This document shows, one piece after another, positions 2 to 39,241 of a stretch of 58,997 nt of DNA. The DNA is from Aestuariivirga sp. GTDB lineage: Bacteria > Pseudomonadota > Alphaproteobacteria > Rhizobiales > Aestuariivirgaceae. The stretch lies in the NCBI GenBank assembly GCA_030680855.1, contig JAUXUN010000081.1, forward strand, positions 1 through 58,997, given 5' to 3'. A model generated the notes under the pieces. The model ran no database searches and was not told the DNA's origin. It saw only the letters and a list, made by a program, of their open reading frames with translations. Numbering within the stretch: the stretch's first letter is position 1; each line of letters opens with the position of its first letter. A program made the translations under genes and the position numbers.

Positions 2-517
2 AACAATGCGGCAATTGCCACGCAGGCATTCCGCGATTCCGGTGCGGCGCGCGTGGCCATTCTCGATGTGGATTTTCACCACGGCAATGGCACGCAGGAT
101 ATTTTCTATGACCGCAGTGACGTGCTGTTCTGTTCGCTGCATGGAGAGCCGGAAACAGCCTATCCTTATTTCCTTGGCTTCAAGGATGAGACGGGGGCCG
201 GTAAAGGTGAAGGCTTCAATTTCAACTATCCGCTGCCTGAGGGATGCACTTACGAAAAGTGGAGCAAGGCGCTGGGCCAGGCTTGCGGGAAAATCAAAAG
301 CTTTGCGCCCGATGCGCTGGTGGTTTCCCTTGGCGTTGATACCTACGAAAAGGATCCCATCAGCTATTTCAAACTGAAGTCGGAGGATTTCCGCGACTAT
401 GGGCGGCGCATTGCCAAGCTGAAGCTGCCGACGCTGTTCGTCATGGAGGGCGGCTATGCCATTGAGGCCATCGGGGTGAACACGGTGAATGTGCTGGAAG
501 GCTTCCTTGATGCGTGA
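2..517 (+). CDS. Histone-deacetylase-like acetylpolyamine amidohydrolase, C-terminal part (5' end outside window)
   Basis: The frame is open from the first bases, so the gene starts upstream; 171 residues are visible. The stretch DVDFHHGNGTQDIFY is the metal-site and active-site block of the arginase/deacetylase superfamily (Asp and His ligands of zinc). A later SLGVDTYEKDP block supplies another metal ligand. Bacterial members of this class remove acetyl groups from acetylated polyamines or other small amides in the cytoplasm. Its stop overlaps the start of the next gene (an amine dehydrogenase) by 8 bases, which implies one operon and suggests that deacetylation supplies a free amine for oxidation. 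The substrate is inferred from context only; a protein or acetoin-related role cannot be excluded. Confidence 0.85.
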   Translation, partial: NNAAIATQAFRDSGAARVAILDVDFHHGNGTQDIFYDRSDVLFCSLHGEPETAYPYFLGFKDETGAGKGEGFNFNYPLPEGCTYEKWSKALGQACGKIKSFAPDALVVSLGVDTYEKDPISYFKLKSEDFRDYGRRIAKLKLPTLFVMEGGYAIEAIGVNTVNVLEGFLDA

Positions 518-2576
518 CCCGCGCTATAACGTGCTTTTCGAGCCGGTGAAGATCGGGCCGGTGACGGCGAAAAACCGGTTTTACCAGGTGCCGCATTGCA
601 ATGGCGGTGGCTATCGGGACCCCACTGCCGCGGCTGAAATGCGCCGGGTGAAATCGGAAGGGGGCTGGGGGGTGATTTTCACCGAGCAGGTGGAAATCCA
701 TCATTCATCGGAGATCACGCCTTTCATTGAGCTGCGCATCTGGGACGAGGACGACATGCCTGGCCTCACGAAGATGGCCGAGGCCATTCATTCAAACGGG
801 GCGCTGGCAGGCATTGAGCTGGCTTACAGCGGAACCAATGGCCCCAATCTCTATACGCGCGAAGTGCCCATGGGGCCGATGCACAGCCCGATCCTGACGT
901 TTACCAGCGATCCGGTGCAGGCCCGCGCCATGGACAAGGAGGACATCCGGAACCTGCGCCACTGGCACAAGCTGGCTTACCGCCGCGCCAAGCGCGCAGG
1001 CTACGACATCATGTGCCTTTATGGCGCCCATGGCTTCGGCATTCTGCAGCACTTCCTGTCGCGGCGGACCAATCAACGCGGCGATGAATATGGCGGGCCG
1101 CTGGAGAACCGGGCGCGGCTGCTGAAGGAATTGCTCAGCGATGCGCGCGACGAGGTAGGCGACAGTTGCGCCGTGGCGGTGCGGCTTTCGCTTGATGAAA
1201 TGGCGGGCGAGCAGGGATTTTCCAATGCGGAGCTGCGCGATCTCATCGGCCTGCATGCGGAGCTTCCCGATATCTGGGATTTTGCCCATGGCACCTGGGA
1301 GGCCTGTTCGGGCACTTCGCGCTTCAAGCCGGAAGGCGCACAGGAGGATTTGATCCGGGGGATCAAGCAACTCACATCAAAGCCCGTGGTGGGCGTGGGG
1401 CGCTTCACCTCGCCGGACCTCATGGTGCGGCAGATCAAGCAGGGCATATTGGATTTCATTGGCGCGGCGCGGCCCTCCATTGCCGATCCGTTTTTGCCCA
1501 ACAAGATTGACGAAGGCCGGGTCGAGGATATCCGCGAATGCATCGGCTGCAATATCTGCGTGACGGGAGACATGACGGGTTCCTTGTCGCGCTGCACGCA
1601 GAATTCATCCTTCATGGAGGAGTGGCGGAAAGGCTGGCATCCTGAGCGGAGCAAGTCGAAGGCGACGGACGCGAAGGTGCTGGTGGTGGGGGCAGGACCG
1701 GCGGGGCTTTCCGCCGCACACAAGCTGGGACTGCGCGGCTATGAGGTGGCGCTGGCCGAGGCCGGCACCGAGCTTGGCGGGCGGGTGGCGCGGGAATGCC
1801 GCCTGCCAGGGCTTTCCGCTTGGGGACGGGTGCGGGATTACCGCGCGGGCCAGATCGGCAAAATGAGCAATGTGAATGTTTACCGCGACTCGAAACTCTC
1901 CGCCGATGACATCCAGGAATTTGGTTTTGAGCATGTGGCCATTGCAACGGGCGCCACATGGCGGCGTGACGGCCTTGCCCGCTACAATCTTCTGCCGATT
2001 GCCATTGATGCGGCAATGCCGGTGTTCACGCCTGACGACTTGATGGAGGGCCAACGGCCCTCCGGCCACGTGGTGATCTATGATGACGACCATTACTACA
2101 TGGGCAGTGTGCTGGCCGAACTTCTGGTGCAGAACGGCAATCGCGTGACCTTCATAACTCCATCCGCCAAGGTGGCGGAATGGAGCTTCAACACCCTGGA
2201 GCAGGGATTGATTCAATCACGGCTGCTTGAGCTCGGTGTCGAGGTGCGGGTGACGCGCGCCGTGACCGAGGTAAAGGCTGGCGGTGTTGCCGCAAGCTGC
2301 GCTTATACAGGGCGGGTGGAGGACATCGCCTGCGAAGCGGTGCTGATGGTGACGTCGCGGCTGCCCAATGAATCGCTGATGCTTGATCTCACGGCGCGAG
2401 CTGCCGCTTGGGCGGACAATGGCATTCAATCGGTGAAGGCCATCGGTGATGCACAGGCGCCGGCGGCCATTGCCTGGGCCACCTATGCGGGGCACCGTTA
2501 TGCGGAGGAGTTTGACATGCCCGACATCGGTGATGCATTGCCATTCAAACGGGAAGTTGCGGGGTTAAAGAACTGA
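510..2576 (+). CDS. Trimethylamine/histamine dehydrogenase-family iron-sulfur flavoprotein
   Basis: 688 residues, close to the size of trimethylamine dehydrogenase (TMADH) and histamine dehydrogenase. The N-terminal FMN TIM barrel spans about residues 1-340. A 4Fe-4S motif has Cys344, Cys347, Cys350 and Cys362, and a Rossmann domain starts near residue 395 (VLVVGAGPAGLSAA). Cys30 in QVPHC matches the 6-S-cysteinyl-FMN attachment site of TMADH; Tyr171, His174 and Asp257 match its catalytic residues. The substrate bowl differs: TMADH Tyr60, Trp264 and Trp355 read here as Gln60, Trp256 and Asp354. As I recall, Gln/Trp/Asp is the set in histamine dehydrogenase, which also takes agmatine and diamines. 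A primary or diamine substrate is therefore likelier than trimethylamine. The ATG at 510 was chosen because it overlaps the upstream stop and begins MRDPRYNVLFEP, the family N-terminus. Expected electron acceptor: an ETF-like protein (inference). Confidence 0.9.
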   Translation: MRDPRYNVLFEPVKIGPVTAKNRFYQVPHCNGGGYRDPTAAAEMRRVKSEGGWGVIFTEQVEIHHSSEITPFIELRIWDEDDMPGLTKMAEAIHSNGALAGIELAYSGTNGPNLYTREVPMGPMHSPILTFTSDPVQARAMDKEDIRNLRHWHKLAYRRAKRAGYDIMCLYGAHGFGILQHFLSRRTNQRGDEYGGPLENRARLLKELLSDARDEVGDSCAVAVRLSLDEMAGEQGFSNAELRDLIGLHAELPDIWDFAHGTWEACSGTSRFKPEGAQEDLIRGIKQLTSKPVVGVGRFTSPDLMVRQIKQGILDFIGAARPSIADPFLPNKIDEGRVEDIRECIGCNICVTGDMTGSLSRCTQNSSFMEEWRKGWHPERSKSKATDAKVLVVGAGPAGLSAAHKLGLRGYEVALAEAGTELGGRVARECRLPGLSAWGRVRDYRAGQIGKMSNVNVYRDSKLSADDIQEFGFEHVAIATGATWRRDGLARYNLLPIAIDAAMPVFTPDDLMEGQRPSGHVVIYDDDHYYMGSVLAELLVQNGNRVTFITPSAKVAEWSFNTLEQGLIQSRLLELGVEVRVTRAVTEVKAGGVAASCAYTGRVEDIACEAVLMVTSRLPNESLMLDLTARAAAWADNGIQSVKAIGDAQAPAAIAWATYAGHRYAEEFDMPDIGDALPFKREVAGLKN

Positions 2577-2577
2577 G

Positions 2578-3465
2578 ATGGGCAAACTGACTGTGGCCAT
2601 TACGCAAATGGCATCGGAAAATGACTGGAAGAAGAATTGCGACAAAGCGGAGAAGCTGGTGCGCGATGCGGCCAGGCAAGGGGCGCAGCTCATCCTCCTC
2701 CAGGAATTATTTGATGGCGATTATTTCTGCATTGAACAGCACACACGGTTTTTCAAGAATGCCCACGAGATAGAGCATCATCCCACGGTGGCGCGCTTTA
2801 TGGCGCTTGCAAAGGAACTTGGCGTGGTGCTTCCGATCAGTGTTTTTGAGCGCGCCGGCCAAGCCCACTACAATACAACGGTGATGGCGGATGCTGACGG
2901 CAAACGCCTTGGCGTCTACCGCAAGTCACATATCCCTGACGGGCGCGGCTATCAGGAGAAATTTTATTTCTCGCCGGGGGATACGGGCTTCAAGGTTTGG
3001 GACACGGCGGCGGGCAAGGTGGGGCTGGGCATTTGCTGGGACCAGTGGTTCCCGGAATGTGCCCGGATCATGGCGCTGATGGGAGCGGAAATCCTGCTTT
3101 ATCCCACTGCCATTGGTTCGGAACCTGGCGATCCTTCCTATGACTCCAGCAATCACTGGCAGAACACCATGCGGGGCCATGCGGCGGCCAACATCATGCC
3201 GCTGGCCGCTTCCAACCGGGTGGGGCGGGAAGTGGCGCCTGACGGGCGGGCCGACACGTTCTATGGCCGGTCCTTCATCTCCGACCAACAGGGCGAAAAA
3301 TTAACTGAGATGGACCGGGTGGAAGAAGGGGTGCGGCTGCAGAGCTTTGACCTGGCGGCGATTGGCGAATTGCGCCGGACCTGGGGGGTGTTCCGTGACC
3401 GGAGGCCCGAACTTTATGGCAGTCTCTTGTCAATTGATGGTAAATTGCGCTTTCCCGCCACATAG
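2578..3465 (+). CDS. aguB: N-carbamoylputrescine amidase-like nitrilase-family hydrolase
   Basis: 295 residues, the normal size for AguB. The nitrilase triad is visible: Glu43 (LLQEL), Lys116 (YRKSHIP) and Cys153 (GICWDQWFPE). The block RGYQEKFYFSPGD is typical of the N-carbamoylputrescine amidase subgroup, which hydrolyses N-carbamoylputrescine to putrescine, CO2 and ammonia in the second half of the agmatine route. The ATG lies one base after the preceding stop, so it is cotranscribed with the amine dehydrogenase. No agmatine deiminase (AguA) is visible in the window, so either it lies elsewhere or this enzyme acts on another carbamoyl amide. The family call is firm; the exact substrate is inferred. 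Confidence 0.85.
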   Translation: MGKLTVAITQMASENDWKKNCDKAEKLVRDAARQGAQLILLQELFDGDYFCIEQHTRFFKNAHEIEHHPTVARFMALAKELGVVLPISVFERAGQAHYNTTVMADADGKRLGVYRKSHIPDGRGYQEKFYFSPGDTGFKVWDTAAGKVGLGICWDQWFPECARIMALMGAEILLYPTAIGSEPGDPSYDSSNHWQNTMRGHAAANIMPLAASNRVGREVAPDGRADTFYGRSFISDQQGEKLTEMDRVEEGVRLQSFDLAAIGELRRTWGVFRDRRPELYGSLLSIDGKLRFPAT

Positions 3466-3516: not shown

Positions 3517-3942
3517 ATGGAGAAACCGGGTTTTCTCATTCAGCACTTCATGATCGCGGCCCTGCTTGCCGCCATTGGCATCGTCGTCCTTGCTGGCCAA
3601 TCCCACGCGGGCAACCGCTATTGCATCTATTACCCGGAAGATCCCAACTGCTATGAGGCGCTCTACGGACAGCGCGGCATTTCGCAATCGCCTGGCGAAG
3701 ATGACGGGCAATTTGACGATGGCAATTTCTACTTTCAGCCACCTCCGCCACGCCCGCGGGCCAAGTCTGCCACGTCGTGCCAAAACATTGGCCGGGCGTT
3801 GCGGCAGCATGGCTATCGCCAGGTGCGACCGGTGGATTGCGGTGGCGTGGATTACAAGTACGTGGCCTATCTCGGCTACCAGCGCTACCTGCTGCGGGTG
3901 AACAGCCGCAACGGCGCGATTGTTCACGAAATCAATTATTGA
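3517..3942 (+). CDS. Small exported protein of unknown function
   Basis: 141 residues. An N-terminal hydrophobic segment (about residues 11-27) ends in GQSHAGN, which looks like a signal peptide cleaved after Ala. The mature part has paired cysteines (YCIYYPEDPNCYEA near the start, then two more in TSCQNIG and VDCGG), a proline-rich linker and a C-terminal tyrosine-rich segment ending NGAIVHEINY. Four cysteines in an exported protein suggest disulfides. I do not recognise the family. Its last 11 bases overlap the 3' end of the convergent amidase gene, leaving no room for a terminator between them. Confidence 0.7.
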   Translation: MEKPGFLIQHFMIAALLAAIGIVVLAGQSHAGNRYCIYYPEDPNCYEALYGQRGISQSPGEDDGQFDDGNFYFQPPPPRPRAKSATSCQNIGRALRQHGYRQVRPVDCGGVDYKYVAYLGYQRYLLRVNSRNGAIVHEINY

Positions 3943-5374
3943 GAACTGGCCGCTTTTCCCTGGTTGTGTACCAGCCGCCAAGGGCTTTTTCGTAAGCGAG
4001 CCCGGCGCGGAAGACGCGGGCATCATCCCAGGTGCGGCCGACGATTTGAATGCCGGTGGGAACGCCTTGCGATGTATGGCCTGAGGGAACGGCCAGCACC
4101 GGGCAATTGTGCAGCATGTTGAACTGGGCTGTCATGACCCAGCCATATTCGGCATCGGCTTTCCTGCCGTTGATGGTGAAAGTCTGGTCCCAGGGATCAT
4201 GGCCGGCCTTCACGGCGGCGAGATTGTTGGTGGGGCAGACCAGGACATCGTGGGCTGCAAGGATTGGCCCCAGTGTCTGGTACATGGTGTTGATGCGCTC
4301 CCACGTCTTGTGCACATCATTGATCTGCGTGTTCCTTTCCACGGCGTCGGCCATTTTCAAGGCATAGTCGGTCATCAGGTGGGCGCTCTGCTCGCGGTGC
4401 CAAACTGTCTGCCGGCCGAAATGCATGGCGTTGTACCAATGGAAGCAATCTAGGTCGACTTGCGGGGTCCAGCCGAGTTCAACTCCATTGACCTCGGCGC
4501 CGAGGCCGCGGAGCACGGCAAGGGCGGCCAACGTATTCATGCGCACTTCCGGATCCAGTTCGACATAACCGAAATCAAGCGAATAGGCGATCTTCATGCC
4601 CCTGATGCTTTCAGCTTTCGTGGGAAGCTTCACACGGTTGCGGAGCGAGTCGTGATCGAGCGGATGCGGGCCTGATGTCACGTTCTGCATCAGGGCCGCA
4701 TCCGCGATGGTCCGGGTCATGGGGCCGCAATGGTTGAAGCGGTCAAAATTTGCCGGCGGCCCATCGGGATTGCGCCCGTGCGGCGGCTTGTAGCCCACGA
4801 CGCCACAGGCGGAAGCGGGGATGCGGATGGAGCCGCCGATGTCGGTTCCCGTCGCAAGCGTTGTGAAGCCCGCAGCCAATGCCGCACCCGAACCGCCGGA
4901 AGAGCCGCCGGGGCCGTAGTCGAGGTTCCAGGGATTTCGCGTGATACCCCAAATCCGTGAATGGGTGACACCGGAGAGGCAAAATTCCGGCGTCGTGGTG
5001 CGGCCAAAAATGATGGCGCCGGCTTTTTCCAGGCGCGCGATCTGGGGATCGGAATGATCATCAATGTTGTTGGCGAAGATCAATGAACCATGGGTGGTGC
5101 GCCTGCCTTTCACGCGTTGCGCATCCTTGACCAGCAAGGGAATGCCTTCCAGGGCGCGTGGCCTGAAGCCGCGTTTCGCATAGAGTTGTTCTGCTGCCTT
5201 TGCCTTGGCCAGGGCTTCATCGAAATAGCAGTCGGCGAGGCAGTTTATTTTTTCGTTCAGCTTCTGGCTGCGCGCCATCAGTGCCTTGAGCAGTTCGACG
5301 GGCGAGACCTTGCGGGCCTTGAACAGTTTCAGAAGCTCCGTTGCAGAGGCATAGGCCAGATCAACATTGGTCAT
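3932..5374 (-). CDS. Amidase signature family hydrolase
   Basis: 480 residues. The Ser-cisSer-Lys triad of the amidase signature family is visible: Lys83 (LLVKD), Ser158 in the GPGGSSGGSGAALAAG block, and nucleophile Ser182 (TDIGGSIRIP). The enzyme hydrolyses a carboxylic amide to acid and ammonia in the cytoplasm. An upstream extension of the open frame is possible, but the start ATG at 5374 gives MTNVDLAYASATELL, the usual amidase N-terminus. It is divergent from the SDR gene, 60 bases apart, and sits among polyamine genes, so an omega-amide or guanidino-derived amide is a reasonable but unproven substrate. Confidence 0.88.
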   Translation of the reverse strand: MTNVDLAYASATELLKLFKARKVSPVELLKALMARSQKLNEKINCLADCYFDEALAKAKAAEQLYAKRGFRPRALEGIPLLVKDAQRVKGRRTTHGSLIFANNIDDHSDPQIARLEKAGAIIFGRTTTPEFCLSGVTHSRIWGITRNPWNLDYGPGGSSGGSGAALAAGFTTLATGTDIGGSIRIPASACGVVGYKPPHGRNPDGPPANFDRFNHCGPMTRTIADAALMQNVTSGPHPLDHDSLRNRVKLPTKAESIRGMKIAYSLDFGYVELDPEVRMNTLAALAVLRGLGAEVNGVELGWTPQVDLDCFHWYNAMHFGRQTVWHREQSAHLMTDYALKMADAVERNTQINDVHKTWERINTMYQTLGPILAAHDVLVCPTNNLAAVKAGHDPWDQTFTINGRKADAEYGWVMTAQFNMLHNCPVLAVPSGHTSQGVPTGIQIVGRTWDDARVFRAGLAYEKALGGWYTTREKRPVLNN

Positions 5375-5434
5375 AGACAATTTCCACGGATTGGAGTTAG
5401 GCAGGAGTTTGAACCATAATGAGGGAACTAGTCC

Positions 5435-6178
5435 ATGGCCGGGAAGCTTGAGGGTCGCGTTGCATTGGTCACTTCGGCGGGGCAGGGCATTGGCCGGGCC
5501 TCGGCCATTGCGCTGGCGCGGGAGGGGGCAAAGGTTTTTGCCACCGACATCAGGGAAGATTTTTTTGCGGACATTTCGAAGAAACATCCCGGCATCACGG
5601 GCTTTGGGCTCAATGTTCTGGAGCAGCCGGCGGTGGATGCGGCTTTAAAGCGCACCGGCGCCATCGACATCCTGTTCAACTGCTCGGGCTTTGTGCACAA
5701 CGGCACGGTGCTGGACTGCGAGGAGAAGGATTGGGACTTCTCTTTCGACCTGAACGTGAAGGCCCATTACCGGATGATCAAAGCCTATCTGCCGGGGATG
5801 CTGGCGAAGGGCAAGGGCAATGTCATCAACATGGCGTCGGTTGCCTCTTCGGTGAAGGGAGCGCCCAACCGTTTTGTCTATGGCGCCAGCAAAGCAGCGG
5901 TTATTGGCCTCACCAAGGCCTTGGCGATAGATTTCGTGGCCAAGGGCATCCGCTGCAATTGCATTTGCCCGGGAACGGTGGAAACGCCGTCGCTTTATGA
6001 CCGGATGCGGGCCCAGGGTGATGTTGAAAAGGCCAAAGCCGCCTTTATCGCACGGCAACCCATGGGGCGCATGGCGCAGCCTGAAGAAATAGCGGAGATG
6101 GTTGTTTATCTGGCAAGCGACGACACGGCCTTCATAACCGGGCAGGCGCTTGTCATCGATGGCGGCTGGTCGATTTAA
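5435..6178 (+). CDS. Short-chain dehydrogenase similar to BDH2/DHRS6
   Basis: 247 residues, classical SDR size. The NAD-binding turn is TSAGQGIG (residues 13-20) and the catalytic residues are Ser136, Tyr149 and Lys153 (YGASK). Whole blocks match what I remember of human BDH2/DHRS6: FVHNGTVLDCEEKDWDFS, SVASSVKG, GIRCNCICPGTVETPSL and VIDGGWS. That enzyme was named 3-hydroxybutyrate dehydrogenase type 2 and was later reported as a 4-oxo-L-proline reductase. An NAD-dependent oxidation or reduction of a small oxo acid in the cytoplasm is expected. A Shine-Dalgarno-like gaggg precedes the ATG by 8 bases. The SDR family is certain; the specific substrate is open. Confidence 0.9.
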   Translation: MAGKLEGRVALVTSAGQGIGRASAIALAREGAKVFATDIREDFFADISKKHPGITGFGLNVLEQPAVDAALKRTGAIDILFNCSGFVHNGTVLDCEEKDWDFSFDLNVKAHYRMIKAYLPGMLAKGKGNVINMASVASSVKGAPNRFVYGASKAAVIGLTKALAIDFVAKGIRCNCICPGTVETPSLYDRMRAQGDVEKAKAAFIARQPMGRMAQPEEIAEMVVYLASDDTAFITGQALVIDGGWSI

Positions 6179-6268: not shown

Positions 6269-7366
6269 TTGGCAATTGGCAAGGCTGCCATTGAGGCAGT
6301 CGGCGTTACAAAGATATTCCAAAGCTCGGGCCAGGACAGCCTCAAGGCCCTGGACAATGTTTCCGTCACGATTGGCGAAAACGAGTTTTTCACCCTTCTC
6401 GGCCCTTCGGGCTGCGGGAAAACTACCCTGTTGCGGCTGATTGCCGGGTTTGATTTTCCAACCGATGGGCAAATCCTGCTGCATGGGCAGGATATCGCGC
6501 AGCTGCCGCCGTTCCAGCGGCCGGTCAATACGGTCTTTCAGAACTACGCCCTGTTTCCCCATATGACGGTTGGCCAGAACATCGGCTTTGGCCTGGAAAT
6601 GCAGGGCAAGCCCAAGGCGCAGGTTGAGGCACGGGTGGCTGAGATGCTGCGACTGGTGCAGATGGAAGAGCTCAAGAACCGACGGACCAGCCAGATTTCT
6701 GGTGGCCAGCAACAGCGCGTGGCGCTGGCGCGGGCCCTTGCGCCGGAACCCAAGGTCCTGCTCCTTGATGAGCCGCTTTCGGCGCTTGACTACAAGCTGC
6801 GCAAGGAAATGCAGATCGAGCTAAAGCGCCTGCAGAATGAAACGGGAATTACCTTCATTTTCGTGACGCATGACCAGGAAGAAGCGCTGACCATGTCAGA
6901 CCGCATTGCGGTGATTTCAAAAGGCAAAATTCTGCAAGTGGGATCCCCCCGCGACATCTATGACCGGCCGGCGGTGCGCTTTGTGGCCAATTTCATTGGC
7001 GAAACCAATTTCCTTGAAGGCAAAGTTGTTTCAACCGCTAAAGGTCAGGCCAAGATTGCGCTTGATGCGGGCACTACGATTGCTGCGTCGCTGGGCGAAG
7101 GTGCCAAGCCATCGGGCAAGGTGACGGTTGTGGTGCGTCCGGAACATGCAAGCGTTGTTGCGTCATCTGGCAAGGCGACACTTTTGGGCAAGCTCGAAAA
7201 CATCGTCTATTTCGGTACGGACACCCATTACCATGTGAAGCTGAACGGAGGCGGCGAGTTCACTGTCCGCCACCAGAATGTCCATGCAGGCGCCCTGGCT
7301 TTTGAAAAAGGCGACAAGGTGGGCGTGCTGTTTGGCGCCGATGCGGCCCGCGTGTTGAGGGATTGA
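6269..7366 (+). CDS. potA: Spermidine/putrescine-type ABC transporter, ATP-binding subunit
   Basis: 365 residues. Walker A is GPSGCGKTT (near residue 48), the signature is ISGGQQQR, Walker B is [12 protein letters not shown] and the switch histidine is in THDQEEA. A C-terminal TOBE-type region follows from about residue 245. This is the PotA class that energises polyamine uptake. The start is a TTG at 6269 preceded by GAAGGGGAG at 6252-6260, an unusual start but well placed. Its TGA overlaps the potB ATG by one base (TGATG). It is the first gene of the potABCD operon; the 90 bases upstream show no obvious operator. Confidence 0.92.
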
Positions 7367-8289
7367 TGGCAACGCCGCGCGAAATCGCCATTGCGGCGGA
7401 ACGGCGGGACATCCGCAACAGGTGGCTTCTTTCTTCACCCGCCTTGCTCATCATCGCCCTTGCGGCAGTCGGCCCCCTGTTCGTGATGCTGCTCTATTCC
7501 TTCATGCTCAAGGGTGACTACGGCGACGTAAAGCCCTGGCAGTTCTCGGGTGACGGCTGGTTCGGGGTTTTCCTGCAGCGGGACATTTTCGATGACACGC
7601 TGACCGTTGCCGATGCCCACATCACTATTTTCTGGCGCTCGGTCAAGTTGTCGCTGATGACGACGCTGGCAACACTTTTCCTCGGATTTCCGACTGCCTA
7701 TTTCATTGCAACGCGACCGCCGCAACGGCGCGACATCTGGCTTTTCCTGGTGACCATTCCGTTCTGGACCAACATCCTGATCCGGACTTTCGCCATGCAG
7801 GAGGTGATCCGCAACGAAGGCATCGTCAACAGTGTCATGGTCTGGCTGGGGCTGATCAGCGCGCCGGTGCAGATCATGTACACGGACTGGGCCATCCTGT
7901 TTGGCATGGCCTATGTCTATCTGCCGCTGATGGTGCTGCCTTTATACGCCAGCATGGAGAAGATTGATTTCCGGCTGGTGGAAGCCGGCTATGATCTCTA
8001 TGCCACGCGGCTCCAGGTTCTCCGGCGCATCATCATTCCCCTGGTAAAGCCCGGCATCATTGCCGGCTCCATCCTTGTCTTCATCCCGTCGCTTGGCGCC
8101 TATGTGACGCCGCGGGTGCTCGGCGGCGGCAAAAACATGATGCTCGGCAATCTCATCGAGCTGCAGTTCGGGCAGGGGCGTAACTGGCCGCTGGGTGCGG
8201 CGCTGTCCATCACGCTGATGATCATCGTCACCCTTGCTTTGCTCGTCTATGTGCGAAATGCCTCCAAAACCGGAGGCGGCCATGGCTAG
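7366..8289 (+). CDS. potB: Spermidine/putrescine-type ABC transporter, permease
   Basis: 307 residues with about six hydrophobic membrane segments. The first is LLSSPALLIIALAAVGPLF. The BPD permease EAA-like loop appears as EAGYDLYATRLQVLRRIIIPLVKPGI. It forms the membrane channel with the next gene product. The ATG at 7366 overlaps the potA stop by one base; a TTG one codon earlier is also in frame but less likely. The soluble N-terminus before the first helix (REIAIAAERRDIRNR) is typical for PotB-class proteins. Confidence 0.92.
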   Translation: MATPREIAIAAERRDIRNRWLLSSPALLIIALAAVGPLFVMLLYSFMLKGDYGDVKPWQFSGDGWFGVFLQRDIFDDTLTVADAHITIFWRSVKLSLMTTLATLFLGFPTAYFIATRPPQRRDIWLFLVTIPFWTNILIRTFAMQEVIRNEGIVNSVMVWLGLISAPVQIMYTDWAILFGMAYVYLPLMVLPLYASMEKIDFRLVEAGYDLYATRLQVLRRIIIPLVKPGIIAGSILVFIPSLGAYVTPRVLGGGKNMMLGNLIELQFGQGRNWPLGAALSITLMIIVTLALLVYVRNASKTGGGHG

Positions 8290-9082
8290 GACATTTTCCG
8301 TCAGGACGCAGCCGGGCTTCACCTTCATTGCGATGCTGTGTTTCTTCCTGCTTTACCTGCCGATCGCCACGCTTGTGGTCTACGCCTTCAATTCGGGACA
8401 GTCGGTTGCGATCTGGGAGGGGTTTTCATTCCGGTGGTTCGAGTCGGCTTGGAACAACCGGGCAGTCCAGGAAGCCTCAATTCGCTCGATTTTCATCGCC
8501 ACGTTTGCGGCAATCGTGGCAACGTTTGTGGCAACAATGGCGGCGCTCGCCACCACGCGGACGGCGCCCTATCCCGGCCTTACCTTCAAATACGCCTTCA
8601 TCAACCAGCCTCTGATGGTGCCCGAAATCGTCACGGCCGTTGCCCTGCTCATCGTTTTCTCGCGCATCAAGGTGTGGACCGGGTATTCCGGCATTGCCTA
8701 TCTGCTTGCCGCCCATACGGCCTTCTGCATTCCCTTTGCCTACCTGCCCATCCGGGCGCGGCTGGAAAACATGGACCTGACGCTGGAAAGGGCCGCCGCC
8801 GACCTCTACGCAACCCCTTGGAATGCCTTCAAACGCGTGACTTTGCCGCTTCTGTGGCCTGGCATCATCGCCGGGTTCATGCTGGCCTTCGTGATTTCGC
8901 TTGACGATGTGGTAATAACGGAGTTCGTGAAATCGGGCGGGCAGGAAACCCTGCCGACTTACATGCTGGGGCAGTTGCGCCGTATCGTGACGCCCGAAAT
9001 CAACGCGATTGCAACGGTGTTCCTGCTGATATCGGTCGCATTCGTGACAATGTTCTTCATAATCAACCGCAAGAAACCATGA
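8282..9082 (+). CDS. potC: Spermidine/putrescine-type ABC transporter, permease
   Basis: 266 residues, six predicted membrane segments and the EAA loop ERAAADLYATPWNAFKRVTLPLLWPGI, as in PotC. The C-terminal pattern SLDDVVITEFVKSGGQETLPTYM is very typical of PotC/PotI. The ATG at 8282 overlaps the potB 3' end by 8 bases; a longer open frame begins at 8234 but would overlap more and adds a non-family leader. It acts as a heterodimer with PotB in the inner membrane. Confidence 0.92.
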   Translation: MARTFSVRTQPGFTFIAMLCFFLLYLPIATLVVYAFNSGQSVAIWEGFSFRWFESAWNNRAVQEASIRSIFIATFAAIVATFVATMAALATTRTAPYPGLTFKYAFINQPLMVPEIVTAVALLIVFSRIKVWTGYSGIAYLLAAHTAFCIPFAYLPIRARLENMDLTLERAAADLYATPWNAFKRVTLPLLWPGIIAGFMLAFVISLDDVVITEFVKSGGQETLPTYMLGQLRRIVTPEINAIATVFLLISVAFVTMFFIINRKKP

Positions 9083-9108
9083 TGCGTACAACAAGGAGGA
9101 AGACGACC

Positions 9109-10143
9109 ATGAAATGGAAACTGACAGCGGTGCTCGCGGGCGCCGCACTATTCGCCGCGGCGGGTGCAGCGCACGCCGAAGGCGAACTCAACATCTACAA
9201 CTGGGGCAACTACACCAGCCCGGAGATGATCAAAAAGTTCGAGGAAGCCTACAAGGTCAAAGTCACGATCACCGATTATGATTCCAATGACACGGCTCTC
9301 GCCAAGGTCCGCGCCGGCGGCCACGGTTTTGACATTGTCGTGCCTTCGGCTAACTACGTGCCGATCTGGGTCAAGGAAGGATTGCTGCTGGAGTCGCGCC
9401 CTGACCAGATGGAAAACTTCAAGAATGTCGATGACCGCTGGGTGAACGTCGACTGGGATCCGGGCCGGCATTATTCGGTTCCGTGGCAGTGGGGCCTGAC
9501 CGGCTCGACGGTTGATACGTCGGTCTACAAGGGCGACATCAACACTTCGGCCATCTGGCTTGACCCACCGCCAGAACTGGTGGGCAAGATCAATGTGGCG
9601 CCGGAAATGAATGACGTCATGTTCGCTACCATCCGTTATATGGGCGGCCAATGGTGCACGGACGACAAGGAACTCCTGAAGAAGGTGCGCGACAAGCTGC
9701 TTGAGGCGAAGCCGAAGTGGATCGCCATGGATTACGGCACCATCGAAAAATTCGCCAGCCGCGACTATGCCGCCGCGTATTACTGGAATGGCGCTGCCAT
9801 GCGTTCGCGCGAGCAAAACCCGGATGTGCGCTTTGGCTATCCCAAGGAAGGCTTCCCCTTCTTCATGGACAGTGCAGCCATTCTCAAGGACGCAAAAAAT
9901 CCGGACAATGCCAAGCTGTTCCTGAACTTCGTCATGGATCCGGAAAATGCCGCGATGCTCTCGAACTTTGCCAAATACGCAAATGGCATCAAGGGATCGG
10001 ATGCGTTCATGGATCCGGCGATGAAGGATGCGCCTGAACTGAACGTTCCGGCGGAATTCCAGGCGGCGGGTGAATTTCTTCAGTCCTGCGCGCCGGAAGT
10101 TACGGACATCTATACGAGGATCTGGACGGAACTCCTGAAGTAA
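9109..10143 (+). CDS. potD: Polyamine-type periplasmic substrate-binding protein (first of two)
   Basis: 344 residues. A signal peptide (MKWKLTAVLAGAAL...AHA) is probably cleaved after residue 23. The mature protein starts EGELNIYNWGNYTSP, the PotD/PotF family opening, and has the KEGFPFFMDSAAILKDA region holding the ligand Asp. The start at 9109 is fixed by AAGGAGG at 9093-9099, one of the strongest ribosome sites in the window, as expected for a highly expressed binding protein; the open frame extends to 9079. It shares most of its sequence with the next gene but differs around the ligand site (WQWGLTGSTVDTS, YYWNGAAMRSRE), so its ligand may differ. A hairpin follows it. Confidence 0.92.
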   Translation: MKWKLTAVLAGAALFAAAGAAHAEGELNIYNWGNYTSPEMIKKFEEAYKVKVTITDYDSNDTALAKVRAGGHGFDIVVPSANYVPIWVKEGLLLESRPDQMENFKNVDDRWVNVDWDPGRHYSVPWQWGLTGSTVDTSVYKGDINTSAIWLDPPPELVGKINVAPEMNDVMFATIRYMGGQWCTDDKELLKKVRDKLLEAKPKWIAMDYGTIEKFASRDYAAAYYWNGAAMRSREQNPDVRFGYPKEGFPFFMDSAAILKDAKNPDNAKLFLNFVMDPENAAMLSNFAKYANGIKGSDAFMDPAMKDAPELNVPAEFQAAGEFLQSCAPEVTDIYTRIWTELLK

Positions 10144-10158
10144 CGAAACCTGCATGCG

Positions 10159-10189
10159 GCAGCCCCCGGTGCTTAGCACAGGGGGCTGC
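10159..10189 (+). terminator. Hairpin between the two binding-protein genes
   Basis: GCAGCCCCC (10159-10167) pairs with GGGGGCTGC (10181-10189), and inside the loop GTGC (10169-10172) pairs with GCAC (10176-10179). The result is a 13-bp stem with one mismatch, starting 15 bases after the potD stop and followed by TGTGTTTT. It could terminate most transcripts after potD or stabilise the upstream mRNA end. Confidence 0.65.
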
Positions 10190-10290
10190 TGTGTTTTCGG
10201 GGCCCAGTTTGATTTCATTCGTATTTTTGGCCATAGTTCTTGCCAGCGGTCCCAAAGAGCAAGATTCATGAAACAGAGAGGAACACAGCC

Positions 10291-11325
10291 ATGAAATTCA
10301 AACTAGCGGCGGCGCTGACAGGATTTGCCATGTTCGCCGGCCTTGGCCAGGCGCAGGCGGAAGGCGAACTGCATATTTACAACTGGGGCGACTATACCAG
10401 CCCCGAACTCATCACGAAGTTCGAGAGGCAATTCGACGTCAAGGTGACAATCACCGACTACGACGCGAATGATACGGCGATCGCAAAAGTAAGAGCCGGC
10501 GGCCACGGTTTCGATGTCGCGATGCCATCGGCGAACTACGTTCCGATCTGGATCGAGGAGGGCCTGCTGCTGGAGTCAAGGCCGGACCAGATGGGGAATT
10601 TCAAGAACATGGACCCGCGCTGGGTCGATGTGCCCTTCGATCCCGGCCGCCATTACACGGTGCCCTGGCAATGGGGCACCAATGGCATTCTCGTCAATAC
10701 AAAGTTCTACAAGGGCGATCCCAATACCTCCGCCATTTTCCTCGACCCACCGGATGAGTTGAAAGGCAAGATCAATGTCGTCCCCGAAATGGGCGAGGTC
10801 ATGCATCTGGCCATTGAGTATGTGGGCGGCGAGCCCTGCACTGCAGACAGGGAGGTGTTGACGAAGGTCCGCGACAAGCTCATGGCGGCCAAGCCAAGCT
10901 GGATTTCCATGGACTACGCCAATCCGGATAAATATGCCAAGGAAGACATAGCTGCCGGCGTCAACTGGAACGGCTGGTCGTTCCGCGCACGCCTATTAAA
11001 CAGCAATCTCGTCTATGGTTTTCCCAAGGAAGGCTTTCCGATTTTCATGGACAGTGTTGTAGTCCTGAAAGACGCCAAGAATGTGGAGAACGCCAAATTG
11101 TTCCAGAATTTTATCATGGATCCGGAGAATGCCGCGATGATCTCCGCCTTTGCGCGCTATAACAATGGCATCAAGGGTTCCGAAAAATTCATGCCGGAAG
11201 ATATGAAGACGGCGCCCGAGGTGAACATCCCGGAGGACGTCATGGCCCATGGCTCGTTCACGCCAACATGCCCGCCGGAAGTGACGGAAATCTATACGAA
11301 GATATGGACTGAGTTGATGAAGTGA
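10291..11325 (+). CDS. Polyamine-type periplasmic substrate-binding protein (second, tandem paralogue)
   Basis: 344 residues, exactly the length of the preceding paralogue. The signal peptide [15 protein letters not shown]...AQA is likely cleaved after residue 23. The mature start is [15 protein letters not shown]. By eye roughly two thirds of positions match the first copy. Differences cluster in the cleft: [13 protein letters not shown] versus WQWGLTGSTVDTS, and [13 protein letters not shown] versus YYWNGAAMRSRE. The conserved Asp in [14 protein letters not shown] remains. The start at 10291 follows AGAGAGGAA; a longer frame from 10240 lacks family character. No second set of membrane subunits is present, so it probably docks on the same PotABC. 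Confidence 0.9.
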
Positions 11326-13637: not shown

Positions 13638-15299
13638 TTAAATCGTAATTCCTGGCAGCTTCAGGCCCTGTTCCCTGGCGCAATCCCTGGCGATGTCGTA
13701 GCCGGCGTCGGCGTGGCGCATGACGCCGGTTGCTGGGTCGTTCCACAAGACGCATTCCAGCCTGCGGGCTGCGTCAAAGGTGCCGTCGGCGACGACGACC
13801 ATGCCGGCATGCTGCGAATAACCGATGCCGACGCCGCCGCCGTGATGGATTGAAACCCAGGTGGCGCCGGAGGCGGTGTTGAGCAGGGCGTTGAGCAACG
13901 GCCAATCAGACACGGTATCGGAGCCATCGAGCATGGCTTCGGTTTCGCGGTTGGGGGAAGCGACGGAGCCTGAATCGAGGTGGTCACGGCCGATGACGAT
14001 GGGGGCTTCGACTTCGCCGTTCCTCACCATTTCATTGAAAGCCAGCCCCAGGCGGTGGCGCTGGCCGAGGCCGACCCAGCAGATGCGGGCGGGCAGGCCC
14101 TGGAAGGCGATGCGTTCACGCGCCATGTCGAGCCAGTTGTGCAGGTGCCTGTCGTCGGGGATGAGTTCCTTGACACGCTGGTCGGTCCTGTAAATGTCTT
14201 CCGGATTGCCGGAAAGTGCAGCCCAGCGGAAGGGCCCGATGCCACGGCAGAACAGCGGGCGGATATAGGCGGGCACAAAACCGGGAAAATCGAAAGCATC
14301 CTTCAGGCCCATTTCAAAAGCCATCTGGCGGATGTTGTTGCCATAATCGAGGGTGGGGATGCCGGCTTCCTGGAAATCAAGCATGGCCTGCACGTGGATT
14401 TTCATGGAGGCCATGGCGGCTGCCTTTACCGCTTGCGGATTTGAAACGCGCTTGTCTTCCCATTGGGCCAAGGTCCAGCCAATGGGCAGGTAGCCATTTA
14501 CCGGGTCATGGGCGGAGGTCTGGTCGGTGACCGCATCCGGCCTGATGCCGCGCTTGACCATGTCGGGGAGAATTTCGGCCGCATTGCCGAGAACGCCAAC
14601 CGAGATCGGCTTTGGCGAGCGCTTGATCATTTCGATGGCTTCATCGACGGACCGGGCCTGCGTGTCGAGGTAGCGGGTGCGGAGCCGCATGTCGATGCGC
14701 GAGGGCTGGCATTCGATGGCGACCATGGAGGCACCGGCCATGGTGGCGGCCAAGGGTTGCGCGCCGCCCATGCCGCCGAGGCCAGCGGTCAAGAACCATT
14801 TGCCCTTCAGATTGCCGCCATAGTGCTTGCGTCCTACTTCGGCGAAGGTTTCGTAGGTGCCCTGGACGATGCCCTGGGTGCCGATGTAGATCCAGGACCC
14901 CGCCGTCATCTGGCCGTACATCATCAGGCCCTTTTTATCGAGCTCGTTGAAATGATCCCAAGTGCCCCAATGGGGCACGATGTTGGAATTGGCGATGAGC
15001 ACGCGGGGGGCGTCCTTATGGGTGCGGAAGATGCCGACTGGCTTGCCGGACTGCACCAGCAGGGTTTCATCATCTTCGAGGGAGCGGAGGCTGGCCACGA
15101 TCCGGTCGTATGCTTCCCAGTTGCGCGCGGCCCTGCCGATGCCGCCATACACCACGAGTTCCTCGGGGCGTTCGGCCACGTTCGCGTCGAGATTGTTCAT
15201 CAGCATGCGCAAGGGGGCTTCGGTGAGCCAGGACTTGGCACTGAGGGTTGTTCCGGTGGCGGCACGGATGACCCGGGTGTTGTCGCGGCGGCTGTTCAT
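13638..15299 (-). CDS. hutU: Urocanate hydratase
   Basis: 553 residues, the normal length. The tightly bound NAD+ site includes [17 protein letters not shown], and the conserved cysteine lies in [10 protein letters not shown]. It converts urocanate to 4-imidazolone-5-propionate, step 2 of histidine degradation. The start ATG at 15299 overlaps the hutC stop (ATGA) and gives [13 protein letters not shown], as in other HutU proteins; the longer frame to 15401 lies inside hutC. It is last in the hutI-hutC-hutU unit and should be repressed by HutC. Confidence 0.96.
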
Positions 15300-16024
15300 A
15301 AGGGCTTTCCTTGGGCATTGGTTTTGTAGCGGCTGTGCAGGCCGTAGCGGCTGGCGGGATAGATGAGGGTGGCCACGGTGACGACCTGGCCCTGGTTCCA
15401 ACTCCGGCGATGGAGTGCAAGGCAGGGTTCATTAGGCTTTATGTCCAGGAGTTCCTGCTGGGCTGCATCGGGCAGCAGGGCCCTGACGGCGTGTTCCAGT
15501 TCATCAACGGGAACGGTATTCAGCAGATAGGCCGTGGGCGTTTGCTTGGTAAAACTCTGGATGAGGAAGTCTGGGGCAATCTGGGGGTTCACCCAGCGGT
15601 TCTCGAGCTGGACCGGCACGCCGTTTTCCTCATGGACAATGGCGAGATGGAACAGGTTCTGGGGGGATTTCCACTCAAACTCTTCGGTGAGAATTGGGTT
15701 GGCGGTTATCTTTTCACGGGTGATCAGGCGCGAGGAGTATTTATGGCCGCGGGCGGCGATTTCCTCCGCGATATTGCGGAGTTCCATCAGGCTGGTGCGG
15801 GCGGTCTGTTCCTTGACAAAGGTGCCGACGCCGGGAACCCGGGCGAGGTAGCCATCGGCGGAGAGCTCACGCAGGGCCCGGTTGGCGGTCATGCGGCTGA
15901 TGCCGAAGCTTTCGACGAGCTCGTTTTCCGAGGGTACGCGTGAGCCGGCGGCCCAGGTGCCGGACAGGATATTATCCAGGATATGCTCCTTCACCTGCAT
16001 GTAGAGGGGCTGCATCTGGTTCAC
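15296..16024 (-). CDS. hutC: Histidine utilisation repressor, GntR/UTRA family
   Basis: 242 residues. An N-terminal winged helix-turn-helix (about 5-75, with [25 protein letters not shown]) is followed by a UTRA effector domain (about 90-235). HutC represses hut genes until urocanate binds. The start is the GTG at 16024, preceded by AAAGGA 8 bases upstream and overlapping the hutI stop; an in-frame ATG sits at 16015. Its position between hutI and hutU puts it under its own control, as in other proteobacteria. Confidence 0.95.
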
Positions 16025-17208
16025 GGCAGGGTTCCTTTGATGATCTCGCCATTCCGGATGACGGCGGCGAGGGGATTAAACCCCAGGGGGTAGGCGAGAT
16101 CGCCAGGGCGTTTGACGTCCCACAAGGCGAGATCGGCCTTCTGGCCCACGGCGATGGTGCCCCGGTCCTTGAGGCCAAGGGCGCGGGCGGCATTGGCGGT
16201 GACGCCCAAGAGCGCCTCTTCCGGGGTGAGGCCGAAAAGGACGCAGGCCATGTTCATGGTGGCGAGCAGGGAATGGACGGGGGAGGAGCCGGGGTTGAGA
16301 TCGGTGGCGATGGCAACGGGGACCTTGTGCCTGCGGAGCTCCGCCACCGGCGGGGCCTGCTTTTCGCGCAGGTAATAGAAGGCGCCGGGGAGCAGCACGG
16401 CCACGGTGCCGGACTTGGAAATAGATTCGACTCCCTCCTCATCCAGATATTCGATGTGATCGACGGACAGGGCCTTGAAGCGGGCCGCCATTTTCGCTCC
16501 GCCCAGATTGGAGAGCTGTTCGGCATGCAGTTTCACCGGCAGGTTGAAGGCCCTTGCCGCCTTGAATACGGTTCGGGTTTCCTCGACGGAAAAGGCAATT
16601 CCCTCACAGAATGCGTCAACCGCATCGGCGAGCCCCTCCCCGGCAACTCTGGGAAGAGCCTGATCGCAGACAATTTTGAGGTAGGCTTCATGGTCTTCCC
16701 TGAATTCATGGGGGAAGGTATGGGCGCCGAGAAAGGTGGTTTTCACGTCCACCGGGCGCAGGGTGCCAAGCGTTCTGGCCACCTTGAGCATCTTGACTTC
16801 GGTCTCAACATCGAGGCCGTAGCCCGACTTGATTTCAATGGTGGTGACCCCTTCGGCCAAAAGCGATTCGAGTCGACGCAATGCGGATTCGAGTAGCTCC
16901 GCTTCACTGGCCGCACGGGTAGCGCGCACGGTGGACATGATGCCGCCGCCCGCCGTGGCAATGTCAGCATAGGTGGCGCCATTGAGGCGCTGCTCGAATT
17001 CAGCGGCGCGGTTGCCGCCATAAACCAGATGAGTGTGACAATCGATGAGGCCGGGGGTGAGCAGTCTGCCACCGCAATCAATTGTAGTGCCTTTGGGGGT
17101 GTCGGGTCCTACCGATTTTATGACACCCTTTTCGATCAGGACCGCGCCCTTCTCAATGAGGCCGTAGCCGTTGACCATGGTGGCGATGGAAAGATTGGTG
17201 AGGTGCAC
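16021..17208 (-). CDS. hutI: Imidazolonepropionase
   Basis: 395 residues from the GTG at 17208, which follows a CAGGGA ribosome site; the open frame runs to 17424 but would cross the operator and the divergent gene. Amidohydrolase metal ligands are seen in [10 protein letters not shown], with the substrate loop [24 protein letters not shown]; later ligands are HAEQLS and [10 protein letters not shown]. It opens the imidazolone ring to N-formimino-L-glutamate, step 3 of the pathway. First gene of the leftward hut operon. Confidence 0.95.
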
Positions 17209-17232
17209 GTGGATTCCCTGCTTGTATAGTGT

Positions 17233-17242
17233 TGTATATACA
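17233..17242. promoter_or_regulatory. HutC-type operator palindrome between divergent hut genes
   Basis: TGTATATACA is a perfect 10-base palindrome inside the 48-base gap between hutI and hutF. A second half-site, CTTGTATAGT, lies at 17221-17230. HutC boxes in other bacteria are built around TTGTATA-type inverted halves, and position and sequence both fit. It probably controls both divergent units at once. No clear -35/-10 pair could be assigned in either direction. Confidence 0.75.
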
Positions 17243-17256
17243 GTATGCTCGCAAGC

Positions 17257-18618
17257 ATGATCCAAGGCAAGTTCCGTTTCACATCGGCTCTCACTTCTTC
17301 CGGCTGGCAGAAGGACGTGGCTGTTGTTGTCGATCAAAACGGGATGATTGAAAATATTGAGACCGACGCGAAAGATGGAACTCCGATCAGGGGCATCGCC
17401 ATCCCCGCCGCTCCCAATGTTCATTCACATGCGCATCAACGATTGATGGTGGGACTGGCGGAACGGGCGGGTCCGGGGGCTGACAGTTTCTGGACCTGGC
17501 GCGAGGCGATGTATGGCTTTGCGCTGAAGCTTTCGCCCGATGATCTTGAAGCGGTTGCGGCGCAGGCCTATGTTGAAATGCTGAAGGCGGGCTTTTCCTG
17601 CGTGGGGGAATTCCAGTATCTGCATCACCAGCCTGACGGCTCGCCATACGATGAGCCCGCTGAAATGTCTTTGCGCTGCATCTCGGCGGCGGAACAGGCA
17701 GGCATAGCCATTACCATGCTGCCGACGCTTTACAATTACTCCGGATTTGGCGGGCAGGCCTCGACTGTGGGGCAACGGCGCTTTGTCAATGGCGCGGAGC
17801 GGTTTCTGGAAATCTACGGCACATTGAAAGCTGTTTGCAAAGCCAGCCCGCTGCGGCGGCTTGGGATATCACCCCACAGCCTGCGGGCGGTGACGCCGGA
17901 CCTTTTGAAAACCGTGCTGAATGGCATTACGGATGATGCCCGGGTGCATATTCACGTGGCCGAGCAAACCAAGGAAGTGGACGATTGCGTGGCCTGGTCG
18001 GGCAAACGACCGGTTGAATTCCTCCTCGACCAGTTTGATGTTTCCAGCCGCTGGTGCGCCATTCATGCGACCCATATGACGGGGAACGAAACCCAGAGGC
18101 TGGCAAAGTCCGGGGTGATTGCGGGGCTGTGCCCCACGACTGAAGCCAATCTCGGGGACGGCATATTTCAGGCGAACAGTTTCAAGAAGCAGGGCGGGGC
18201 CGTTGCCATTGGCAGTGACAGCCAGATCACGATCTCGCCGGCGGAAGACCTGCGGATGCTGGAATATTCGCAACGGCTGCGGGACCGGACGCGCAATGCA
18301 CTGGCTTCCGGGGCCGGGGCCTCGACGGGGCGCAGCTTGCTTGATGCCATTCTTAAAGGCGGAGCCGCCTGCCTTGATCAGCCCATGGGAGTGATTGCCG
18401 TGGGCAAGCGCTGCGACATCACAGTTCTGGCCGACGGGCATCCCGCCATGATCGGACGCGAAGGCGATGCGGCTCTCGACACCTGGATTTTTTCTGCCGG
18501 GAATGCCGCGGTGAAAGATGTGATTGTCGGCGGGTCGCATCTGGTGAAGGACCGCCGGCATATCGACGAAGACCGCATTCAAGAGAAATTTACTGAAACC
18601 GTGAGGCGTTTGTCATGA
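17257..18618 (+). CDS. hutF: Formimidoylglutamate deiminase
   Basis: 453 residues from the ATG at 17257; another in-frame ATG at 17245 would lie two bases after the operator palindrome. Neither has a visible Shine-Dalgarno sequence. Amidohydrolase metal ligands are in [11 protein letters not shown], with further ligands in HIHVAEQ, the HATHM region and SDSQIT. HutF deiminates formiminoglutamate to N-formylglutamate and ammonia, the two-step branch of histidine degradation that then needs HutG. It overlaps hutH by four bases. Confidence 0.92.
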
Positions 18619-34446: not shown

Positions 34447-34453
34447 GGACAAC

Positions 34454-35779: not shown

Positions 35780-35805
35780 GATGGTGCCTTCTTGAGGGGA
35801 TCATC

Positions 35806-36417: not shown

Positions 36418-36448
36418 AATTTAAAAACCATAATCGGGAGTGAAATTA

Positions 36449-37756: not shown

Positions 37757-37764
37757 ACATCATC

Positions 37765-37842
37765 TCTCCATGGTCGCACATGATGCGACCACCCGGACTT
37801 GGGCAAAGGGCTGGGTGGTCGGGTCAAGCCCGACCATGGAGA
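37765..37842. repeat. Palindromic intergenic repeat between gmaS and mgdA
   Basis: TCTCCATGGTCG (37765-37776) pairs perfectly with CGACCATGGAGA (37831-37842); inside, GACCACCC (37787-37794) pairs with GGGTGGTC (37813-37820). The core GGTCGGGTCAAGCCCGACC is itself an inverted repeat. This resembles the mobile palindromic repeats of Hyphomicrobiales and lies inside the operon. Confidence 0.8.
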
Positions 37843-37858
37843 AAAAGAAAAGCCTGAA

Positions 37859-39109: not shown

Positions 39110-39128
39110 TGGAAAGTTCCACAAAATT

Positions 39129-39233
39129 CCTCACCCTGAGGCGCTCGATCCAAAGGACCGAGCCTCGAAGGGCCTTGCGTCGGAACTTGCGGCGATCCTT
39201 CGAGGGCCGCTTCGCGGCCACCTCAGGATGAGG
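39129..39233. repeat. Palindromic intergenic repeat between mgdA and mgdB
   Basis: The ends are CCTCACCCTGAGG (39129-39141) and CCTCAGGATGAGG (39221-39233), inverted with one mismatch. The middle holds GCCTCGAAGGG and its inverse TCCTTCGAGGGC. This arrangement is characteristic of the Hyphomicrobiales CCTCA-type intergenic palindromes. It fills nearly the whole gap, so mgdB is read through it. Confidence 0.85.
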
Positions 39234-39241
39234 GAAGAATT

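Follow-up and report, generated by a model that had tools for sequence, protein, structure and literature searches.

We analyzed a 58,997-nucleotide contig of an Aestuariivirga sp. genome (GenBank assembly GCA_030680855.1, contig JAUXUN010000081.1, positions 1 to 58,997), hereafter the window, and found that the flavoprotein gene near its start is, as far as its sequence can tell, almost certainly a member of the histamine dehydrogenase (HDH) clade of the trimethylamine dehydrogenase (TMADH) family. It is an ordinary member of the HDH family with one oddity, an active site that lacks the aspartate of the catalytic triad. We hold with moderate confidence that the product of this gene is a histamine dehydrogenase of the EC 1.4.9.1 type, for which histamine would be the main substrate and which would feed the imidazoleacetate route. 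Its frame on the plus strand is open for 688 codons followed by a stop (positions 510 to 2576). An in-frame ATG at 489 is a possible alternative start, and the methionine at 510 aligns with M1 of the Rhizobium HDH. In a search of PDB sequences, the HDH of Rhizobium sp. (6de6; 1065 bits) ranked first and that of Nocardioides simplex (3k30; 897 bits) second, followed by an Oxidored_FMN domain protein (6l6j) and then TMADH. The identities in our alignment were 65.7% to 6de6 over 686 residues, 59.6% to 3k30, 47.8% to 6l6j, and 40.1% to TMADH. Pfam placed an Oxidored_FMN domain and a pyridine-nucleotide-disulphide-like domain in the protein, and none of the best 25 of 43 NCBIfam models reached its cut-off.

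An alignment was built from the window protein, 112 relatives of about 600 residues or more, and four reference chains. L001, the copy from the window itself, is among the relatives, and two collections contributed some genes in duplicate. After contained copies were removed, 103 rows, counting the window and the references, went into a maximum-likelihood tree (quick method) with SH-aLRT support and a midpoint root. The window protein fell in a set of 17 rows (support 100), of which 16 have Ala265 and one has Asn265. This set is nested in a set of 95 rows (99) that contains 6de6, and 3k30 is the next to join (93); the root and the long branches, 3k30, L115, and L067 among them, are uncertain. 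Thus, the window protein is bracketed by two characterized HDHs, and this is the basis of our clade assignment. For the same reason, the term "histamine-like" in a preliminary description of this DNA is too weak and understates the apparent kinship. Of the paralogues in the same genome, L002 belongs to a separate set of three rows and L003 and L004 lie further out. L004 (G000:C25:30907-32919) has alanine at the position of Cys30, and its FMN is therefore probably bound noncovalently.

The cofactor residues are present in the window protein. Cys30, the site of 6-S-cysteinyl FMN, aligns with Cys30 of TMADH, and the 4Fe-4S cysteines Cys344/347/350/362 align with Cys345/348/351/364. Tyr171, His174, and Arg225 stand opposite TMADH Tyr169, His172, and Arg222. 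The preliminary description had named all of these except Arg225, and correctly. The aromatic bowl of TMADH (Tyr60/Trp264/Trp355) is not retained: Gln60 stands at Tyr60, Trp355 falls in an alignment gap, and the column of the reported N. simplex Asp358 holds Asp354. The only residue in common is Trp263, which shares its column with TMADH Trp264, N. simplex Trp267, and Rhizobium Trp263. The earlier proposal of an HDH-like Gln/Trp/Asp bowl, as opposed to a TMADH bowl, was therefore right in kind and placed Gln60 and Asp354 properly, but it took Trp256 for the bowl tryptophan, and Trp256 aligns with TMADH Trp254. The alignment with TMADH and the HDHs, which the same description had called for, also displaced its catalytic aspartate. 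Asp257 aligns with TMADH Asp255, and the catalytic position is occupied by Ala265-Cys266. Because Trp256 and Asp257 are invariant in all 112 aligned rows, they are uninformative about the substrate.

The combination Gln60/Trp263/Asp354 occurs in 107 of the 112 rows, and the complete histamine-site set (Q60, I69, F72, E74, N110, F176, W263, and D354) is present in the window protein. We compared it with the positions given in a report on HDH (PMC10180351). Seven of the eight histamine-site positions of the N. simplex enzyme are identical, and the eighth has Phe for Tyr. Identity extends to 15 of the 16 substrate-tunnel positions of the Rhizobium enzyme, the sixteenth (567) being ambiguously aligned.

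The oddity is in the triad. The Rhizobium active site is described as Gln60, Glu74, Phe72, Tyr171, His174, Arg225, Trp263, and Asp265, with Tyr171-His174-Asp265 as the catalytic triad (PMC10180351). In the window protein Ala265 replaces this aspartate, and Cys266 occupies the column of TMADH Asp267 and N. simplex Asp270, so that neither of the two places where an HDH carries its triad aspartate holds an acid. At residue 265, Asp occurs in 74 of the 112 rows, Ala in 26, Glu in 6, Asn in 3, and Lys in 3, and residue 266 is Cys in 106. Because of this variation at residue 265, we did not count the triad aspartate as defining an HDH. Ala265 runs throughout the window's clade, apart from one Asn branch, and is found outside it in only two rows (L080 and L115); its distribution needs at least three changes on well-supported branches of the tree. 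The orthologue of Aestuariivirga litoralis (L047) likewise has Ala265.

Residue 129 varied together with residue 265. Among 117 rows (the window and the references included), all 75 with Arg129 are acidic at 265, and all 27 with Ala265, the window among them, have Leu129. A tight Asp265-Arg129 salt bridge was rejected as the explanation: Arg129 is absent from six rows that have Asp265, and among 457 well-conserved columns another 12 separate the acidic from the non-acidic lineages in the same way. Clade history accounts for much of the coupling; the signal of a plain mutual-information scan was also mostly clade structure. In the N. simplex HDH, residue 265 is Gly and residue 129 is Ala, and for this reason a non-acidic residue 265 may be the older state. 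Four further TMADH-family paralogues, 59-60% identical to the window protein (L147, 9307-11358; L148, 8299-10350; L149, 8032-10089; L150, 8175-10229), keep the HDH pocket Gln60/Trp263/Asp354 and have Lys in place of the catalytic His174. An FMO gene lies beside two of the four.

We infer the following scheme for a histamine dehydrogenase of this kind. As a 6-S-cysteinyl-FMN/[4Fe-4S]/ADP-binding flavoprotein, it would oxidize a primary amine in the Gln60/Trp263/Asp354 pocket to an imine, which would hydrolyze to an aldehyde and ammonia. Electrons would leave for their acceptor through the 4Fe-4S center, as in TMADH, and catalysis would do without the triad aspartate, presumably by the Tyr171-His174 pair only. 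The aldehyde derived from histamine would be oxidized to imidazoleacetate and then degraded by the products of four genes, FMO, RidA, DUF1028, and ArgE, which we call the tail set. The enzyme would probably also accept agmatine and the putrescine set free by its two flanking enzymes, acetylpolyamine amidohydrolase (ApaH) and N-carbamoylputrescine amidase (AguB).

The tail set is present in the window's genome, with all four genes together on contig C54 (locus L134; FMO 74% identical to the query, RidA 67%, DUF1028 52%, and ArgE 55%). In Pseudomonas putida and P. aeruginosa, according to a review (PMC8231116), HinC and HinD take histamine to imidazoleacetate and HinFLHG, encoded by an operon, take it onward to aspartate. 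HinK is a LysR regulator there, hinG encodes a probable peptidic-bond hydrolase, and hinF, hinL, and hinH are hypothetical. The tail set on C54 would be the counterpart of HinF-L-H-G, and HDH would replace the aminotransferase HinC. We consider this set a likelier partner of HDH than the hut genes, to which the preliminary description had pointed. The hut genes do lie about 11 kb downstream, but the functional link is weak on mechanism because Hut takes histidine, not histamine. Directly before FMO-RidA-DUF1028 at L134 there is an HpaB-like flavin monooxygenase gene (19-1317), as there is in genome G014 (L161); it is possibly a second ring hydroxylase.

Gene context in other genomes agrees with a link between HDH and the tail set. 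We surveyed the best 80 of at least 591 loci, on named genome contigs. At least two tail genes were found in 44 of 67 Asp265 loci and in two of three Glu265 loci, often with LysR, aldehyde dehydrogenase (ALDH), and Pot genes; the count was 34 of 46 for the Asp265 loci with at least 9 kb on both sides. At L155 (genome G043), an Ala265 HDH lies amid FMO, RidA, DUF1028, ArgE, and Pot genes. On plasmids of Caballeronia and Mycolicibacterium, the four tail genes stand together, and no HDH is annotated in these stretches, the PLSDB gene tables being incomplete; an Acetobacter plasmid has the four in a looser grouping that includes an ALDH. A Roseateles plasmid carries HDH and the four tail genes, of which RidA, DUF1028, and ArgE lie about 9 kb beyond it. 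A Shinella plasmid stretch has HDH, RidA, DUF1028, and ArgE and no annotated FMO-like gene in the same incomplete tables.

We then scored co-occurrence in 69 family genomes and in 37 genus genomes, with presence set at 64% identity or more for HDH (any residue 265), 63% or more for FMO, and 76% or more for AguB, and with partial or stop-bearing copies counted as present. In the family, 23 genomes had both HDH and FMO, 8 had HDH only, 1 had FMO only, and 37 had neither (Fisher, 1.3e-10). The genus figures, in the same order, were 17/4/1/15 (6.7e-6). The HDH copies of G005, G015, G028, and G056 are partial or broken.

Several observations weigh against histamine as the main substrate. The association of HDH with AguB was equally strong (both/HDH only/AguB only/neither, 22/9/5/33 in the family, 1.2e-6, and 21/0/5/11 in the genus, 5.1e-6). 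HDH thus goes with both FMO and AguB, and co-occurrence leaves histamine and putrescine unseparated; all of these Fisher values overstate independence, the genomes being related. Genus genomes G012, G015, G025, and G034 have HDH without a close FMO, and G012, G025, and G034 are 99-100% complete. The FMO copies of G001 and G030 were counted yet carry stop codons. Fourteen of the 67 Asp265 loci lack all four tail genes. None of eight loci from the window's clade, only four of which have at least 9 kb on both sides, links the FMO set to HDH, whose fixed neighbor there is AguB. For the cluster ALDH, the best matches in the window's genome are distant (41-43% identity); another ALDH could take its place, and the genome has six. 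Finally, the tail set is only a putative counterpart of HinFLHG, matched by gene order, with PA5393-PA5391 presumably of the FMO, RidA, and DUF1028 families. The control genomes that matched in a search with TIGR04046 included no Pseudomonas.

Putrescine is a serious rival substrate because of the operon and the co-occurrence with AguB, and we regard a putrescine (diamine) dehydrogenase as unlikely on balance but far from negligible. In such a pathway, the Pot transporter would import acetyl- or carbamoylputrescine, ApaH and AguB would free putrescine, and the flavoprotein would make 4-aminobutanal. The gene is tightly packed with two enzymes whose common product would be putrescine. AguB is adjacent in eight of nine Ala265 loci and in only 1 of 67 Asp265 loci; the same nine have ApaH adjacent in three cases and no tail genes, although only four of them have at least 9 kb on both sides. 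At the sole Asn265 locus, HDH adjoins both ApaH and AguB, and all four tail genes are absent. All 21 HDH-bearing genus genomes have AguB, compared with 5 of the 16 without HDH, and it lies on a contig other than that of HDH in G005, G023, G024, and G028. The N. simplex HDH oxidizes putrescine at 30% of its rate on histamine (PMC10180351). However, the pocket is nearly residue-identical to the histamine pocket of the Rhizobium enzyme, whose main side activities are on agmatine and 1,3-diaminopropane (10% and 13% of the histamine rate; PMC10180351). The ApaH-AguB pair also occurs without an HDH match (E 1e-100) at L154 of genome G002 and, judging from gene coordinates, in G017 and G021. The pair is therefore independent of HDH, and HDH looks as if it had been inserted between the two genes. 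The six aldehyde dehydrogenases of the genome could serve either route.

The remaining alternatives are much less probable. We think it improbable that the enzyme is an agmatine dehydrogenase, the product of which, 4-guanidinobutanal, would join the arginine transaminase route. Both known HDHs accept agmatine as a side substrate (PMC10180351), and the window encodes, at 50040-51614 on the minus strand, a thiamine pyrophosphate (TPP) enzyme that scores over the cut-off for 5-guanidino-2-oxopentanoate decarboxylase, a step of that route to 4-guanidinobutanal. However, agmatine is oxidized by the nearest characterized enzyme, the Rhizobium HDH, at only the low rate given above. The window's genome (G000) has no match to the agmatine deiminase family (PF04371), and in the 69 family genomes this family showed no association with HDH (12/19/12/26; P = 0.62).

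It is still less probable that, with its triad aspartate gone and no acid at Ala265-Cys266, the protein is a catalytically weakened or repurposed homologue. In a library of Asp265 variants of the Rhizobium HDH, the active clones were all unsubstituted, which indicates that Asp265 is intolerant of change and counts against an active histamine dehydrogenase here as well (PMC10180351). However, the window's clade is under purifying selection, with dN/dS of 0.09-0.18 by NG86 in six pairs with relatives (dS about 1 in four pairs) and 0.07-0.08 by YN00 in two pairs only. The remaining active-site residues are conserved in the clade. HDH-type relatives carry D, E, A, or N at 265, and Glu265 (L084 and L086) and Ala265 (L155) enzymes are found in loci with tail genes.

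It is hardly credible that the enzyme oxidizes di- or trimethylamine and supplies a pathway of the N-methylglutamate type: genes resembling that pathway do lie inside the window, at 32.9-42.4 kb, but the protein is only 40% identical to TMADH, its place in the tree is inside the HDH group, and the paralogues L003 and L004 of the same genome have a TMADH-like Tyr60, though neither keeps the bowl tryptophan. In favor of this reading, the preliminary description gives Gln60 for dimethylamine dehydrogenase as well.

The features around the HDH gene are collected in the table. A contig break at the start of the window cuts the ApaH gene, since the N-terminal part sits at the edge of contig C43 (G000:C43:3-653) and the window holds the rest (G000:C39:2-514). 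The full-length orthologue of G007 matches the acetylpolyamine amidohydrolases 6phr, 9gkz, and 3q9b in the PDB. The earlier reading of the packing was accurate: the deacetylase frame, whose stop ends at 517, overlaps the HDH start codon at 510, and a single base separates the HDH stop (2576) from the amidase ATG (2578). The identities it gave to these two neighbors also stood, as both match solved homologues. We compared AguB with the pocket of the plant enzyme MtCPA, taking the roles of residues from PMC4812014, and found 15 of 17 examined positions identical, including the triad Glu48/Lys121/Cys158, Tyr54, Tyr130, Glu132, Trp159, Trp162, Ala183, Ile184, Glu187, Asp190, and Trp277; the departures are Pro128 to Arg and Cys276 to Thr. 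AguA was rejected as a source of carbamoylputrescine, since G000 lacks a PF04371 match and the family is associated with neither HDH nor AguB.

Features of the window around the HDH gene (positions in the window)
Feature	Position	Strand	Remarks
HDH-clade flavoprotein	510..2576	+	688 aa; Cys30 FMN site, [4Fe-4S] Cys344/347/350/362, Gln60/Trp263/Asp354, Ala265-Cys266
ApaH, C-terminal part, residues about 173-343	2..517	+	PF00850
AguB/CPA	2578..3465	+	TIGR03381, 443 bits (cut-off 410); 5h8i match
Amidase-signature family amidase, start unsettled	3932..5422	-	best NCBIfam model 348 bits, below cut-off 506
SDR-family oxidoreductase	5435..6178	+	best model below cut-off
PotABC-type ABC transporter	6269..9082	+	ATPase 6269-7366, permeases 7363-8289 and about 8282-9082
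Two tandem PotD/PotF-like substrate-binding proteins	9079..11325	+	9079-10143 and 10240-11325
hutU (-), hutC (-), hutI (-), hutF (+), hutH (+)	13638..20153		each over an NCBIfam cut-off

In a family scan of the Pot ATPase and first permease, TIGR01187 was over its cut-off and the PotB model was below. The first substrate-binding protein was below the PotF cut-off, and the second was assigned by its likeness to the first. At L032 and L102, which are possibly one gene from two collections, hut genes adjoin ApaH-HDH-AguB (Asn265 variant), among the genes searched. The N-methylglutamate methylamine pathway-like genes (32864-42438, plus strand) encode glutamine-amidotransferase-like, FwdC-like, and GltB-like proteins, a type III glutamine synthetase (TIGR03105 over cut-off), and SoxB-like and SoxA-like proteins (TIGR01373 and TIGR01372 over cut-off).

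The linkage of HDH to the tail set points to a way in which Alphaproteobacteria may complete histamine degradation of the HDH type; in a thin search of the histamine dehydrogenase literature, no title dealt with HDH genomic context. A natural lineage that has neither Asp265 nor Arg129 yet keeps the tunnel residues would offer a direct test of the role of the aspartate, and such a lineage perhaps differs in specificity. Food-safety assays make use of HDH and suffer interference from agmatine and diamines (PMC10180351). One wider scheme is an Asp-less HDH lineage spanning one genus, in which residue 265 was ancestrally non-acidic, Asp265 and then Arg129 were derived toward the Rhizobium enzyme, and HDH, in the window's clade, joined ApaH and AguB in an operon for putrescine salvage. 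We regard this scheme as doubtful. If it is true, the intolerance of Asp265 in the Rhizobium HDH may be due to a derived contact with Arg129 rather than to a catalytic role. HDH-ApaH-AguB would then be a unit of amine release and oxidation for acetylated, carbamoylated, and free amines, possibly including N-acetylhistamine (a word that we did not find in the best-matching literature), with the imidazole tail encoded elsewhere.

Among known enzymes, Methylophilus TMADH (1djn/2tmd) shares with the window protein the covalent FMN cysteine, the 4Fe-4S cysteines, and the Tyr-His pair and differs from it in the bowl and in having Asp267 where the window has Cys266. The likeness to the Rhizobium sp. 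4-9 HDH (6de6) is closer, with Cys30, Gln60, Ile69, Phe72, Glu74, Asn110, Tyr171, His174, Phe176, Trp263, Cys266, and Asp354 identical. The changes from that enzyme to the window's are Asp265 to Ala, Arg129 to Leu, Met63 to Ile, Ala186 to Arg, and Leu258 to Phe. The N. simplex HDH (3k30) has Asp270 and Tyr181 where the window has Cys266 and Phe176. Pno is 48% and 46% identical to the two HDHs, according to a paper on a nicotine enzyme (PMC5500553). As for pathways, many Mesorhizobium and Rhodobacterales HDH loci resemble the Pseudomonas Hin system (HinACDFLHGK) in showing LysR, ALDH, and FMO-RidA-DUF1028-ArgE. However, the Pseudomonas pathway begins with the aminotransferase HinC and the permease HinA, whereas HDH, often with Pot-type transporters, stands in their place here.

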